Source: Methylobacter sp.
Lineage (GTDB): Bacteria; Pseudomonadota; Gammaproteobacteria; Methylococcales; Methylomonadaceae
Assembly (NCBI GenBank): GCA_030679035.1
Contig: JAUXTH010000036.1
Coordinates: forward strand, 1-64,000
Length of the DNA: 64,000 nucleotides
Reading direction: 5' to 3'
Shown: one piece after another, positions 44,014-50,001 of the stretch
How the letters are laid out: every line of letters starts with the position of its first letter
How positions within the stretch are numbered: position 1 is the stretch's first letter
Made by a program: the position numbers and the translations under genes
Notes under the pieces: generated by a model
Told to the model about the DNA's origin: nothing
Databases searched by the model: none
The model's input: only the letters and a program-made list of their open reading frames with translations

Positions 44014-46326
44014 ATGAACAAAACACCTTACCCTGATGACTGGCCTGACATAGACACCAAGCTCTACAATAGGTCGGTCAAGTTGTTTAATGCCGTCAAA
44101 AACATGTTGAGTGTCAGACTTGATCTTCACGCCGACCCGCAGTTTTTGGAAGGCGACATCTTTTTATTCAATCATTTTTCCCGGTTTGAAACGTTCATAC
44201 CGCAGTTTCTTATTTATGAGCAAACCGGGGCTTACAGTTGTGCGATTGCTTCCGGGGAGTTCTTTAAGGAAGATAATGTGCTGTCGCGGTATTTAAAACA
44301 TGTCGGCGTTTTCCCCCACAACCATGACCGTTTGTTTCCGTTGCTGGCCGGGCAGATTCTGCGCGGTCGCAAAGTCATTATTTTTCCTGAAGGCGGCATG
44401 GTAAAAGACCGCCGGGTCATTGATAAACGCGGCCATTACAGTATTTACTCCAGGGTTACCGGCAACCGGCGCAAGCTGCACACGGGGCCTGCTGTTTTGG
44501 GGCAGGGCGTGGAAACCTTTAAGGCGGCTATCCGCCACGCCCATAGCCAGAACGATGCTGCGCTGCTTCGGCAATGGAAGGATGTTTTGCAAATCGACAG
44601 CGTTGATCAGCTGATAGCAGTAGCGAATAAACCGACGCTGATGGTTCCCTCCAATATTACTTTTTATCCGATCCGTTCCTCCGAAAACCTGTTGTTTAAA
44701 AGCGTCGAGCTGTTTTCTAACGGCCTGAGCTTGCGCCAATCCGAGGAGTTGCTGATTGAGGGCAATATCATGCTGAAGAATACCGACATGGATATACGCA
44801 TGGGTGTTCCAGTCGATCCTTGTTGGGTTTGGGACTGGCGAACCCGTTATCTGATGGACAAGGTCATTCCGGAAATCAACACGATAGACGATGTTTTTAC
44901 GCTGAATTCCAGGCCTAAAAACTGGCGGCAGCGTTTATTGGGTACGTATTTTATAAAAAATGCCCAATGTTCCCGTGATCGATACATGGAAGGCATTTAT
45001 GCCAATGTTACTATCAATTTAAGCCATCTGGCGGCAACGCTGATCATGTATTACATCGGTCAGGGACAGACGCATATCGAGAAAGACAAGTTTTATAACA
45101 TCCTGTATATCGCGATCAAGCATTTGCAAAATAATACGGTGATTCATCTGCACCGAAGCCTGCTCAACCCGGATGATTACAGCGATCTGTTTAAGACCAC
45201 CAACAAGCGTTTCGAACAGTTTATGTGCGCGGCAAAAGAAGCCGGGCTGATCAAGGAAGATGAAAACTGTTACCATTTTTTGCCCAAGCTGTGCGTCGAG
45301 TCCGATTTTGACAGCATTCGCCTGGAAAACCCGATAGCCGTTTACAGCAACGAAGCGGCGCCGCTGCATACCGTTCTCGATGCCCTGATTGATGCGACAG
45401 GCGAATGTTGTCACGCCGATACAGACAAATTGGCTGCATGGCATTTTGAAGATGAATGCCGCACCTTGGCATGGGAGAAGCAGGCGTACTCAAAATCATT
45501 GTTTAGCGACATCAGTCATGAAGAAGCTGCCGTTGCCGATCCCACGCCCTTTTTCATCCAGCCGCCTGCCCTGAGCGGTGCCGAAGGGGAACGTGCCAAC
45601 GGCTACGGCGTTTTGCTTGTTCACGGTTTGCTCGCCAGTCCTGCTGAATTAAGGGCTTATGGTGAATATCTGGTTAAGCAGGGTTACATGGTATTGGGTA
45701 TTCGGTTAAAAGGCCACGGTACATCACCCTATGCGTTGCGCGACCAGCGCTGGGAGGACTGGTACGGTTGTGTGCAACGGGGTTTCAATATTCTTAAGGT
45801 GCATTGCCCGCGTATTTTTGTTGCCGGTTTTTCTACGGGCGGGGCATTGGCGTTAAAACTGGCCGCTGAACACTATCCTGAAATGGTCGGCGTTATCGCC
45901 GTTTCGGTGCCGGTAAAGTTCGTCAATCCTGCTTTTATGTTGGTGCCTCTGCTGCATGGCACCAACAAACTGGTTGGTTGGGTTTCGGCCTTTGAGGGCG
46001 TAAAGCCTTTTATCGATAATGAACCGGAACACCCCTCCATTAATTATCGCAACACGCCGGTCAGAGCGCTTTATGAACTGAGGCTGTTAATTGCGCAACT
46101 TGATGAGTTACTGCCGCAGATCAGCATGCCTGCATTGATTATGTATGGTGATGAGGATTCTGTGGTCTCTCCCAAAGGCGCGCCGATCATTATGGCTAAA
46201 CTGGGTTCCAAGCATAAGCAAATCCAAGCCATTAAATCCCATCGCCACGGGATTTTAATGGAAAACATTGGTGGAACTTGGCGTGTGATTGATGATTTTT
46301 TTAATGAGTTAATAAATATATCGTAG
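44014..46326 (+). CDS. Acyltransferase / alpha-beta hydrolase fusion protein
   Basis: 770 residues in two parts. Residues about 30-400 are a PlsC/GPAT-like acyltransferase: NHFSRFE (His54 to Glu59, so H-x4-E instead of the usual H-x4-D) and IIFPEGGMVKDRR near 126. Residues about 530-770 are a monoacylglycerol-lipase-like hydrolase: VLLVHGLLASPAELRAYG, IRLKGHGTSP, nucleophile elbow GFSTGG (Ser607), Asp in MYGDEDSVV and His in SHRHGI. The linker near 519-526 (PALSGAEGE) is encoded by a CCCTGAGC...CGAAGGGG repeat fragment. The neighbouring beta-oxidation genes suggest acyl-lipid remodelling. Confidence 0.8.
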   Translation: MNKTPYPDDWPDIDTKLYNRSVKLFNAVKNMLSVRLDLHADPQFLEGDIFLFNHFSRFETFIPQFLIYEQTGAYSCAIASGEFFKEDNVLSRYLKHVGVFPHNHDRLFPLLAGQILRGRKVIIFPEGGMVKDRRVIDKRGHYSIYSRVTGNRRKLHTGPAVLGQGVETFKAAIRHAHSQNDAALLRQWKDVLQIDSVDQLIAVANKPTLMVPSNITFYPIRSSENLLFKSVELFSNGLSLRQSEELLIEGNIMLKNTDMDIRMGVPVDPCWVWDWRTRYLMDKVIPEINTIDDVFTLNSRPKNWRQRLLGTYFIKNAQCSRDRYMEGIYANVTINLSHLAATLIMYYIGQGQTHIEKDKFYNILYIAIKHLQNNTVIHLHRSLLNPDDYSDLFKTTNKRFEQFMCAAKEAGLIKEDENCYHFLPKLCVESDFDSIRLENPIAVYSNEAAPLHTVLDALIDATGECCHADTDKLAAWHFEDECRTLAWEKQAYSKSLFSDISHEEAAVADPTPFFIQPPALSGAEGERANGYGVLLVHGLLASPAELRAYGEYLVKQGYMVLGIRLKGHGTSPYALRDQRWEDWYGCVQRGFNILKVHCPRIFVAGFSTGGALALKLAAEHYPEMVGVIAVSVPVKFVNPAFMLVPLLHGTNKLVGWVSAFEGVKPFIDNEPEHPSINYRNTPVRALYELRLLIAQLDELLPQISMPALIMYGDEDSVVSPKGAPIIMAKLGSKHKQIQAIKSHRHGILMENIGGTWRVIDDFFNELINIS

Positions 46327-46385
46327 GGGCAAGCCCTTGTGGTTGCCCTAGCCTAATGAGGGGCAGGCACAAGACCTGCCCCTAC
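46323..46385. repeat. Palindromic element, intergenic copy A
   Basis: Starts GTAGGGGCAAGCCCTTGTGG and ends ACAAGACCTGCCCCTAC; the two arms (about 27 bases) are imperfect inverted repeats. It matches the copies inside the FadN-type gene at 47665-47725 and 48850-48920. It begins at the stop codon of the fusion gene. Confidence 0.85.
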
Positions 46386-46417: not shown

Positions 46418-47557
46418 ATGAAAAATGTAGTTATCGCAGGGTATTGCAGATCGCCTTTTACACCGGCGCAAAAAGGCCAATTGGCCAAAGTCAGGCCGGA
46501 TGACCTTGTGGCGCAGGTCATCAAGGGCTTAATCCATGACACCGGCGTTGCCCCGGAGGATATTGAGGATTTAATTTTGGGCTGCGCGTTCCCGGAAGGC
46601 GAGCAGGGCATGAACCTGGCGCGATTAATCGTGCATCTTGCCGAGCTGCCTGTTACCGTTGCCGCTACCACAATTAATCGCTTCTGCGGCTCCTCAATGC
46701 AGGCCATACATAATGCGGCAGGCATGATCCAAATGAATGCCGGTGAGGTGTTTATCTGCGCCGGTGTCGAATCCATGAGTCGGGTGCCGATGGGCGGTTT
46801 CAACAACTTGCCTAATCCCAGTCTTTACAAAGCCTATCCCCAAGCCTATATCGGCATGGGCGAGACGGCGGAAAATCTGGCCTTGCAATATCATATAGAC
46901 CGCTTGGCCCAGGAAACTTTTGCCTTAACCAGCCAGAAAAAAGCGGGAGCGGCCCAGCAAAACGGTCTGTTCGCCACTGAAATAATTCCGATTAAGCGTT
47001 TGGATGGCGAAACCGTTCAATACGATGGCTGCATCAGGGCTGCTTCGACGCTACAGGCGCTGGCCGAACTGCAACCGGTTTTCCTTAAAAACGGCAGCGT
47101 GACCGCCGGAACTTCTTCGCCGGTAACCGATGGCGCGGCTGCCGTGCTGGTGTGCAGTGAGGAGTATGCAGACGCCCATGGCCTGGAAAAACTTGCCAGA
47201 ATCAAGTCCATCGCGGTATCGGGCTGTGCGCCTGAAATCATGGGTATAGGGCCTGTCAGTGCGACCCATAAAGCCTTGCAACGCGCCGGGTTGACCTTAC
47301 AGGACATCGACATCGTCGAACTGAACGAAGCCTTTGCCGCGCAATCTTTGGCGGTACTCAAAGATTTGCCGATTCCGCCGGAAAAATTAAATTTGGATGG
47401 CGGCGCGATTGCGTTAGGTCATCCGCTGGGCGCGTCAGGTGCCAGAATTACCGGAAAAGCCGCCAGCCTGCTGAAACGGGAAAACAAACAGTTCGCTCTC
47501 GCCACCCAATGCATCGGCGGCGGGCAGGGCATAGCGACTATTTTGGAGGCCATCTGA
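46418..47557 (+). CDS. Thiolase (acetyl-CoA acyltransferase)
   Basis: A 379-residue thiolase of the FadA/FadI type, cleaving 3-ketoacyl-CoA with CoA in beta-oxidation, or condensing acyl-CoAs in the reverse direction. TINRFCGSSMQAIHNAAGMI contains the nucleophilic Cys; ELNEAFAAQSLAVL (NEAF), GGAIALGHPLGASGAR (GHP His) and the final CIGGGQGIATILE (second catalytic Cys) complete the active site. Its stop overlaps the start of the next gene (TGATG), so the two are coupled, as subunits of a trifunctional complex usually are. Confidence 0.92.
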   Translation: MKNVVIAGYCRSPFTPAQKGQLAKVRPDDLVAQVIKGLIHDTGVAPEDIEDLILGCAFPEGEQGMNLARLIVHLAELPVTVAATTINRFCGSSMQAIHNAAGMIQMNAGEVFICAGVESMSRVPMGGFNNLPNPSLYKAYPQAYIGMGETAENLALQYHIDRLAQETFALTSQKKAGAAQQNGLFATEIIPIKRLDGETVQYDGCIRAASTLQALAELQPVFLKNGSVTAGTSSPVTDGAAAVLVCSEEYADAHGLEKLARIKSIAVSGCAPEIMGIGPVSATHKALQRAGLTLQDIDIVELNEAFAAQSLAVLKDLPIPPEKLNLDGGAIALGHPLGASGARITGKAASLLKRENKQFALATQCIGGGQGIATILEAI

Positions 47558-50001
47558 TGAACATCCAGAAAGTCGCGGTAATCGGTGCCGGGGTGATGGG
47601 GGCCGGTATCGCCGCCCATATCGCCAATGCCGGTATCCCCGTCTATTTGCTGGATATAGTTCCTGGGCAGGCACAAGGCCAGCCCCTACCAATGATATGT
47701 AGGGGCAATCCCTTGTGGTTGCCCTGTCCTGAAAACCGCAACAGCATTGCCGAATCAGCTATCGCCAAGCTGCTCAAAGCCGACCCAGCGCCGTTCATGC
47801 ATAAAAACAATGCCCGTCTGGTCACGCCGGGTAATATTGAAGACCATCTTGAATGGTTGGCCGATGTCGATTGGGTGATTGAAGCGGTGATTGAAAACCC
47901 GGCGATAAAACAGGCGCTCTACCAAAAACTGGATAACATCTGCCGTCCCGACAGCCTGATTTCATCGAACACGTCCACACTGCCGCTGAAGCTGCTGACC
48001 CGCGACATGCCGGATAGTTTCAAGCAGCGCTTCATGATCACCCATTTTTTCAATCCGCCCCGCTATATGCGCCTGTTGGAGCTGGTTTCAGGTGCCGAGA
48101 CTCGGCCGGAACTGGTGGCGTCCGTCAGCCGTTTTGCCGACACCCATCTGGGCAAAGACAGCGTTACCTGCAAGGATACACCGGGATTTATCGGCAACCG
48201 CATCGGTATTTACTGGCTGCAATGCGGTCTGTTGGAAGCGATCAAGCTGGGCTTGACCGTGGAGCAGGCCGATGCGGTGATGTCCGCGCCATTCGGCATA
48301 CCGAAAACCGGTATCTTCGGGTTGTTGGATCTGGTCGGACTAGACCTGATTCCGCATATTCTGGGCGGCATGAAGCTGGCTTTGCCTAAGGAAGATGCGT
48401 TTCATCAGGTCAATTTTCTACCCGAACTGGTTCAGACCATGATAGCTGACGGTTACACAGGCAGGAAAGGCAAGGGCGGTTTTTATCGTCTACATGAAAC
48501 CGGCGGAAAGCGCGTCAAGGAATCGATTAACCTGCAAACCGGCGCTTATCAGACTAGCGAAAAATTTGCCTTGCCGGTAATGCCCAAAACGCAAGATGAG
48601 CTCAGGGCTTTTTTGTCTGGCGATGACGATCTCTGTCGCTTTGCTTGGCAAGTGCTGTCCAATACCTTGGCTTATAGCTCCAGCCTTATCCCCGAAATTG
48701 CCGATGACATCGTCGCCGTCGATACCGCGATGCGCCTTGGCTATAACTGGAAATTCGGGCCGTTTGAATTATTGGATCGGATTGGCGTAGATTGGTTTGT
48801 CGACCGGTTGATTGCAGAAAACCGTAACGTGCCGCCGTTGCTGGCAACCGTAGGGGCGGGCCTTGTGCCTGCCCTTTCTGCATCAGCCGTATCAGGGCAA
48901 CCACAAGGGATTGCCCCTACAAACCGCAGCCTGTACAAGATTGATTCCGGCAAACGCATGTATGCCGATTTGTCTGGCAATTATCATAGCGTGCATCGGC
49001 CGGGCGGCATCCTGCTGTTGGCCGATATTAAATTACAGGCTCCGGCGGTGCTGGAAAACCCGTCTGCCAGCCTCTGGGATATTGGCGACGGCGTTGCCTG
49101 CCTGGAATTCCACAGCAAAATGAATACGCTGGATATGGATAGTCTGGCGTTGGTTCGGCAAAGCGTCGAAAAGGTCAAAAGCGATTTTTCCGCATTGGTC
49201 ATCCATAACGATGCCGACAATTTTTCCGCCGGGGCCAATTTAACCTTGCTGGTGAAGGCTATTCACGAGCAAGATTGGCCTGCGGTTGAACAATTGATCA
49301 AACAAGGGCAGCAGACTTATCGGGCCTTGAAATATGCGCCATTCCCCGTGGTCGCCGCGCCGTCAGGATTGGCTTTGGGCGGCGGCTGCGAAATCTTATT
49401 GCATTGCGATGCGATCCAGGCTCATGCAGAACTGTATGTCGGCTTGGTCGAAGTGGGCGTGGGTTTGGTTCCGGGTTGGGGCGGCTGCAAGGAATATCTG
49501 CGCCGCTGGCTGGAATTTGCAAGGCGTCCGGGTGGCCCGATGCCGGCCATTGCCCAGGCTTTTGAAACGATCGGCATGGCCAAGGTGTCCAAATCGGCAG
49601 CGGAAGCCAAAGAGATGCTGTTTTTGTCCACCACCGACGGCATTACCATGAATAAGGATCGTTTATTGGCCGATGCTAAAACCAAGGCATTGAAGCTGGT
49701 GCCAGGTTATACGCCGCCTAACCCCAGCATTTATCAGTTGCCCGGTGTCAGCGCGAAAGCTGCAATGGACATGGCGATCAATAATTTTAAACTTGCAGGC
49801 AAAATAACGGATTATGACGTGGAAATATCTCAGCAACTGGCAGAAGTGCTCAGCGGCGGGCAGTGCGATATCACCGAACCATTGAGCGAAGACGATTTGT
49901 TAAACCTGGAATTGAACGCGTTTTTGCATTTGGTTAGGCAACCGGGCACTCTGGCGAGGCTGGAGCATTTATTTAAAACGGGTAAGCCACTTCGTAATTA
50001 A
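47557..50001 (+). CDS. 3-hydroxyacyl-CoA dehydrogenase / enoyl-CoA hydratase (FadN type)
   Basis: 814 residues from ATG 47557. The order is dehydrogenase first (NAD motif VAVIGAGVMGAGIAAHIANAG; FFNPPRYMRLLELV; DTPGFIGNRIG), then a crotonase domain (about 520-800; NFSAGANLT, LALGGGCEILLHCDA). This order is that of FadN, opposite to FadB. Two extra peptides are encoded by palindromic elements: about residues 37-57 in the NAD domain and about 432-455 between dehydrogenase and hydratase. With the coupled thiolase it covers three beta-oxidation steps; no acyl-CoA dehydrogenase or ligase is in the window. Confidence 0.88.
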   Translation: MNIQKVAVIGAGVMGAGIAAHIANAGIPVYLLDIVPGQAQGQPLPMICRGNPLWLPCPENRNSIAESAIAKLLKADPAPFMHKNNARLVTPGNIEDHLEWLADVDWVIEAVIENPAIKQALYQKLDNICRPDSLISSNTSTLPLKLLTRDMPDSFKQRFMITHFFNPPRYMRLLELVSGAETRPELVASVSRFADTHLGKDSVTCKDTPGFIGNRIGIYWLQCGLLEAIKLGLTVEQADAVMSAPFGIPKTGIFGLLDLVGLDLIPHILGGMKLALPKEDAFHQVNFLPELVQTMIADGYTGRKGKGGFYRLHETGGKRVKESINLQTGAYQTSEKFALPVMPKTQDELRAFLSGDDDLCRFAWQVLSNTLAYSSSLIPEIADDIVAVDTAMRLGYNWKFGPFELLDRIGVDWFVDRLIAENRNVPPLLATVGAGLVPALSASAVSGQPQGIAPTNRSLYKIDSGKRMYADLSGNYHSVHRPGGILLLADIKLQAPAVLENPSASLWDIGDGVACLEFHSKMNTLDMDSLALVRQSVEKVKSDFSALVIHNDADNFSAGANLTLLVKAIHEQDWPAVEQLIKQGQQTYRALKYAPFPVVAAPSGLALGGGCEILLHCDAIQAHAELYVGLVEVGVGLVPGWGGCKEYLRRWLEFARRPGGPMPAIAQAFETIGMAKVSKSAAEAKEMLFLSTTDGITMNKDRLLADAKTKALKLVPGYTPPNPSIYQLPGVSAKAAMDMAINNFKLAGKITDYDVEISQQLAEVLSGGQCDITEPLSEDDLLNLELNAFLHLVRQPGTLARLEHLFKTGKPLRN
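47665..47725. repeat. Palindromic element, in-frame copy B
   Basis: Right half GGGCAGGCACAAGGCCAGCC...TAC, nine bases, then left half GTAGGGGCAATCCCTTGTGG...CCCT: the half-sites of copy A back to back. It is translated as about 21 extra residues (GQAQGQPLPMICRGNPLWLP, then C) within the Rossmann fold, between LLDIV and ENRNS. Confidence 0.85.
48850..48920. repeat. Palindromic element, in-frame copy C
   Basis: Starts GTAGGGGCGGGCCTTGTGCC and ends ACAAGGGATTGCCCCTAC; its reverse complement aligns well with copy A. It is translated as about 24 residues (GAGLVPALSASAVSGQPQGI, then APT) between LLATV and NRSLYKID. Confidence 0.85.

Follow-up and report, generated by a model that had tools for sequence, protein, structure and literature searches.

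Two hairpin repeats interrupt, in frame, a fadN-type gene of a Methylobacter sp. genome. They belong to a dispersed family of GTAG-tagged REP elements and are, very probably, RAYT-type mobile hairpins which persist within genes only at permissive loops. These elements, organized as REPINs, would be non-autonomous mobile DNA, a class mobilized by RAYT (HUH tyrosine) transposases, and would have multiplied in the lineage of two genomes, here called G000 and G009. A gene-borne copy would survive only if it preserves the frame and falls in a surface loop. Of the two fadN copies, one would reside in the loop following strand 2 of the NAD-binding fold, the other in the linker joining dehydrogenase and hydratase, the predicted translation product of either insert being a flexible loop tolerated by the enzyme.

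Organization of the REP elements in the window

The window, that is the whole stretch of 64,000 nucleotides analyzed, corresponds to contig C189 of the 4.79-Mb genome G000. Three palindromes reported in an earlier note on this DNA were all found in place, at 46323-46385, 47665-47724 and 48850-48920. The window contains 7 copies of the motif GTAGGGGC, compared with 1.09 on average and never more than 4 in 100 shuffles. The palindromes fold with z scores of -5.25, -5.03 and -3.77 relative to dinucleotide shuffles, and none of 200 shuffles equaled any of the three. Each is made up by two REP units in inverted order, A (GTAGGGGCAATCCCTTGTGGTTGCCC) and B (GTAGGGGCGGGCCTTGTGCCTGCCC), both of which exist in variant forms. 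Both unit types fold into a hairpin with an unpaired GTAG foot, the anatomy of the 20-40 bp palindromes of the GTAG REP superfamily. All three window palindromes qualify as REPINs, in which two GTAG-tagged REP hairpins form an inverted pair.

The intergenic element, found also in G009, is formed by unit A at 46323..46348 (plus strand) and unit B at 46361..46385 (minus strand). The upstream gene, which spans positions 44014..46326 (plus strand) and encodes an alpha/beta hydrolase domain, takes its TAG stop codon (46324-46326) from the GTAG of this element. This gene, located two upstream of fadN, combines the REP-supplied end with an in-frame insert of 8 residues, PALSGAEG (45565..45588, plus strand), a member of the dispersed repeat family F2 described below; none of 11 relatives compared has it. 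The thiolase gene (46418..47557, plus strand) is the upstream partner of fadN.

The fadN gene (47557..50001, plus strand) encodes a 3-hydroxyacyl-CoA dehydrogenase / enoyl-CoA hydratase of 814 aa with both inserts. At site 1, unit B (47665..47689, minus strand) precedes unit A (47699..47724, plus strand), the two together being read as GQAQGQPLPMICRGNPLWLP (residues 37-56). At site 2, unit B (48850..48874, plus strand) and unit A (48895..48920, minus strand) have GTAG outside and are read as VGAGLVPALSASAVSGQPQGIAPT (residues 432-455). The predicted insert-derived FadN peptides are VGAGLVPALSASAVSGQPQGIAPT and GQAQGQPLPMICRGNPLWLPC. The earlier note has to be corrected on the pair at 47665-47724, which runs the opposite way, with GTAG inside, and is the sole such cluster among the 41 of G000; GTAG-inside pairs make up 3 of 41 clusters in G009. 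A trimmed cluster or a permuted circle may have given rise to the pair at 47665-47724.

Abundance and distribution of the elements

A strict pattern detected 56 units in G000 (0 with the reversed control pattern), 58 in G009, and 0-6 in each of the 21 other genomes of the genus, the REP expansion being confined to two of the 23 genomes monitored. A relaxed search, allowing up to four errors around sites located by strict searches, identified 76 units in G000, dispersed in 41 clusters: 34 GTAG-outside pairs, 6 single units, and the GTAG-inside pair at fadN site 1. As in REPINs, REP units form inverted pairs with conserved arms and a variable spacer, fadN site 1 being exceptional in order.

Most clusters are intergenic, only 10 of the 41 residing within an ORF of at least 120 aa. 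Three of the ten were dropped, L086 and L093 because N-terminal, ahead of the recognised domain, and L078 as a RAYT fragment. The remaining seven lie in recognisable genes (two in fadN, one each in mpl, recD, the cobJ-cbiJ linker, cbiG, and a RAYT-like gene on contig C143), and the set is thus not the intergenic-only one that the earlier note had named as evidence against its reading. If about 90% of a typical bacterial genome is protein-coding, as stated in PMC8049555, the 17% of clusters found in genes corresponds to a strong depletion. Further in-frame REP pairs were observed in G009, in a cobD-like gene (L207:3012-3082) and an hsdM-like gene (L218:4891-4946).

In a stop-free-frame test, 7 of the 41 elements of G000 lie in intact frames, and 2 (L097 and the window element at 46323) open a long frame only when removed; the corresponding counts in G009 are 7 and 3 of 41. 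A frame filter on REP insertions is weakly supported by these counts. The GTA frame is used by all 6 distinct GTAG-outside pairs in recognised genes of G000 and G009 (p 0.03, on small numbers, pairs at ORF ends or N-termini, namely L086, L093, L208, L209, L211 and L219, being left out). An element length of 3n+2 was found in 3 of 3 cases in genes versus 15 of 31 elsewhere, a difference which is not significant.

The inserts in the FadN protein

The fadN product features 3HCDH_N, 3HCDH and ECH domains and the invariant residues expected of a FadN-type protein; the name FadN is that of the earlier note, and the NCBIfam matches displayed score under their cut-offs. The reading frame is open throughout, and one insert falls in the NAD-binding fold, one between domains, both as the earlier note had it. 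Site 1 follows strand 2 of the fold (strand at residues 29-33, next helix at 63-74 in the model), and site 2 separates the dehydrogenase domains (Pfam, up to residue 311) from the hydratase domain (510-649). Of the insert sizes proposed earlier, about 21 and 24 residues, the second holds; measured against insert-free homologues, site 1 adds a net 19 residues, 66 bases being found where relatives have 9.

In an alignment of 30 fadN loci the REP inserts are restricted to G000 and G009, two of 15 same-genus fadN genes. The same peptides in repeat-free homologues, which would have spoken against insertion, are missing in the 13 other same-genus genes, and at least 6 residues at the site were found in none of 78 (site 1) and none of 80 (site 2) more distant homologues taken from named records. 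Conserved protein sequence as the source of the inserts was rejected on the latter figures.

The fadN genes of G000 and G009 differ with dS 0.438 and dN 0.034 (dN/dS 0.077) and by no indel, and dN/dS between G000 and 11 other same-genus genes ranges from 0.082 to 0.145. Purifying selection persists on fadN. Two inserts in one gene seem damaging at first sight, as though fadN were a dying pseudogene or the inserts errors of assembly. This is extremely improbable: the same inserts are present in G009, on which ground assembly error was rejected, and the pseudogene was rejected on the dN/dS of 0.077 and the absence of any frame change, HFFNP and other invariant residues being retained as well. 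The insertion into a functional gene envisaged in the earlier note is supported, as far as sequence comparison goes, by empty sites, the matching inserts of G009, purifying selection and the invariant residues kept.

The AlphaFold model of FadN has a mean pLDDT of 90.0. Values below 50 over at least 3 residues are found only at 38-55 and 435-454, within the inserts, which have no secondary structure. The low values are explained in part by the few or no residues that homologues have there (in 41 aligned homologues, none at 435-454 and no more than 7 at 38-55). The inserts are thus modeled as unstructured loops on a confident fold.

Different repeats in the same loops

A fadN gene is present in 15 of the 23 genomes of the genus. 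In-frame inserts were found in nine (G000, G009, G008, G015, G011, G019, G012, G021 and G003), and six genes are insert-free (G006, G007, G010, G013, G018 and G022). Besides the REP described above (REP-A), inserts were sorted into families F2 to F5, labels coined in this analysis, the copies in G011, G019, G023 and G015 being assigned by eye. Site 1 hosts REP-A in G000 and G009, F2 in G008 and G021 and, in short forms, in G011 and G019, and F5 in G023, which belongs to another genus. F5 elements reside near residue 348 in G003 and G011, F3 elements near residue 358 in G012 and G021. Site 2 hosts REP-A in G000 and G009, F4 in G008, G015 and G012. The family has 12 natural indel points, and three of the four insertion sites fall at most 2 residues from one of these, a figure to be taken as indicative, as the alignment included the inserts.

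F4 is a GTGG/GTAG-tagged REP with matches in 11 of the 23 genomes. F5 is a non-palindromic 48-base unit (16 codons), with matches in 20 of 23; some copies are spaced 48 bases apart, and the copies near residue 348 of fadN (L247, L250) are in frame in two species. A strict F2 pattern found solely the two fadN copies in the 23 genomes, a looser one matches in 22 of 23 (0 with the reversed control). Dispersal of F3 (PPLEKGG) was not observed, with 1 match in 223 loci and none in the window.

The adjacent thiolase served as control. It is full length in 26 of the 30 fadN loci, with gap totals of 0 in 20, 1 residue in five and 5 residues in one (L067, from another genus); the 4 partial loci have no gaps, and no insert was found in any of the 30. 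Few other window genes are shared beyond the fadN operon, and a control with them covered just four genes with at least 5 relatives.

Similar slots were found in two more genes. In mpl, aligned in 22 of 23 genomes, the REP occupies its slot in G000 and G009, an F5-like reverse copy does so in G015, and 19 genomes have nothing there; a second slot carries F2-type peptides in 7 genomes (the G012 contig stops before it). In recD, aligned in 17 of 23 genomes (the others being distant or without match), REP-A occupies the slot in G000 and G006, and an F2-like peptide does so in G019; G013 and G001 have other stretches there, 7-10 residues long, and in G009 and G012 the slot is empty. In cbiG (L074:4698-4723, L231, L238), the position taken by the present REP in G000 is taken by another GTAG unit in G009 and G012, as if families had been swapped.

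The slots may not have been hit independently, either because a single insertion spread between species through recombination of gene segments or because repeat families replaced one another at an old insert, an explanation that we regard as rather doubtful. A 56-bp pair with a nearly identical spacer is found at the same base in recD of G000 and of G006, despite the empty sites of G009 and G012; with the position and nearly the spacer in common, two insertions have no advantage, as an explanation, over exchange or over common descent followed by loss. At fadN site 2, REP-A (G000, G009) and the GTGG-tagged REP (G012, G008, G015), placed by eye, coincide to within one or two bases, a different GTAG unit marks cbiG in G009 and G012, and both F2 at site 1 and F3 are found on separate branches of the fadN tree. 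The tree groups G012 with G000 and G009 (0.996), yet several of its inner branches are weak, and swapping requires common ends, whereas F2 and F5, which occupy the same loops, have no ends in common with GTAG REPs on visual inspection.

The different peptides inserted in the fadN, mpl and recD loops of different species could also suggest that they have been co-opted, altering the activity or partner binding of the enzymes. This is very unlikely. Peptides of different families have neither sequence nor length in common, the model assigns them no structure, and 6 of the 15 fadN genes of the genus do without any; on these grounds tolerance fits better than function.

Conservation of the arms at shared loci

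Across the 24 elements that G000 shares with G009, differences affect 17 of 1173 arm sites (1.4%), 57 of 382 loop sites (14.9%) and 1411 of 14276 sites in the 300-base flanks (9.9%). Arms differ from loops with a Fisher p of 2e-22, and from half the flank rate with p 1e-10. No difference was found at 179 arm sites of the shared elements in recognised genes (fadN, both sites, mpl and cobJ-cbiJ). Orthologous units resemble each other more closely than units at different loci, mean differences being 0.73 versus 2.67 among the 15 B units and 0.24 versus 0.78 among the 29 A units, values reached in 0 of 5000 permutations in either case; A units are nearly uniform, and their result rests on few variants. 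The test included 44 units, the 46323 element being omitted, as one of its units was not recognised in G009. Each locus has therefore kept its own version, and homogenising conversion, or copying from a master element, was rejected as the cause of arm identity on account of these locus-specific variants.

The low arm divergence, its absence in gene-borne arms and the retention of locus-specific unit variants would be accounted for if the REP DNA, or the hairpin in mRNA, had a function in place, genes included, selection on nucleotides holding the copies and the peptide being a tolerated by-product. We consider this plausible, though somewhat short of probable. Elements were picked in G000 by resemblance to the consensus, and copies decayed in G000 were therefore missed. 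Two further shared elements, with 1 and 3 differences, bring the arm total to 21 of 1276, and single elements diverge more (4 of 51 arm sites at the N-terminal element L093, 4 of 50 at L096). A low mutation rate of hairpins, or an effect of repair, may have the same outcome. Moreover, of the 17 G000 clusters outside the shared set, 11 could be compared with the G009 place (the other six being three in L078, two in L095 and one in L097): two have the same REP, one another GTAG unit (cbiG), and eight no unit of the family, and many copies must therefore be dispensable.

Selection on nucleotides might hold individual REPs at their loci, copies within coding sequences included, while the permissive loops of conserved genes (fadN, mpl, recD) act as recurrent docking slots for unrelated repeats; we propose this combination only tentatively, as an unlikely one. 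If true, the in-frame entry, swap and exit of short repeats across Methylobacter species would steadily supply natural variation to protein loops. The close relatives, with their filled and empty sites, and the three genes with differing repeats per loop offer a natural experiment on mobile hairpins becoming protein sequence. As the arms are about 10-fold more conserved than the enclosed loop, the old question of how important single REP copies are to the host becomes testable.

Possible mobility and RAYT-like genes

Retention of RAYT-type mobile hairpins in permissive loops, the reading preferred here, is in line with a presence/absence pattern. Empty sites were found for recD in G009 and G012, and for one intergenic element in G009; no target duplication was seen at these empty and filled sites.

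A REP pair lies next to the RAYT-like gene of contig C143, on one side and close to a contig end, and a further REP lies within the gene. The putative product scores 69.8 bits with NF047646, against a curated cut-off of 80. No RAYT gene with this REP on both sides was found among 12 Y1_Tnp matches, 11 of which lack this REP in the stretch around the match. The RAYT connection of these REPs, drawn from sequence features, is at present a weak one, and movement by a RAYT enzyme is to be taken as putative. In three RAYT-like genes or fragments (L095:577-1152, L078:2887-3273, L218:2811-3353) an in-frame REP unit or pair was observed soon after the HUH motif (MPNHFHG).

Comparison with known repeats

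The kind of element is already known, as intragenic GTAG REPs and REPINs are described in PMC3733652 and PMC3116915, respectively. The first reports, in several bacteria, GTAG-tagged REPs wholly inside ORFs, in frame, and encoding 20-30 residues; some genes are hit twice, and REP ends supply the TAG stop of flanking genes. Of the earlier interpretation, insertion into a functional gene is supported; the novelty of kind that it implied is not. No description of such elements in methanotrophs, and no paper on slot-type insertion, was found among the open-access papers listed.

In-frame palindromic inserts, the RPE, add tens of residues to unrelated proteins in Rickettsia. The comparison with RPE made in the earlier note holds as an analogy: in-frame palindromes adding tens of residues are common to both. 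Hosts differ, and so do tags, GTAG here and CGTC there, the intragenic R. conorii repeats RPE-4 and RPE-6 being placed in the CGTC-tagged group in PMC3733652; the two are set apart by description.

With the REPINs associated with RAYT transposases, as presented in PMC3116915, the elements share inverted REP doublets of about 70 bp, the hairpin, conserved arms and a spacer. Placement is described there as extragenic, while here it is also intragenic, and the link to RAYT is putative.

The closest likeness is to the GTAG REPs of PMC3733652. Common features include the GTAG foot, the 20-40 bp palindrome, inverted dimers, mostly intergenic location, ORF-internal copies, genes hit twice and TAG stops supplied; recBCD genes are among the targets there, recB of two Xanthomonas species being hit at about the same site. 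The present elements differ in the host, a methanotroph ('methylo' has 0 matches in the main text of PMC3733652), and in the beta-oxidation gene targeted. Relative to the passages compared, they differ also because several repeat families occupy a slot across species, and arm conservation was measured at orthologous loci. What goes beyond the known kind is that, in some other species, the fadN, mpl and recD loops occupied here by REPs contain peptides derived from different repeats, and that the arms are conserved at shared loci.
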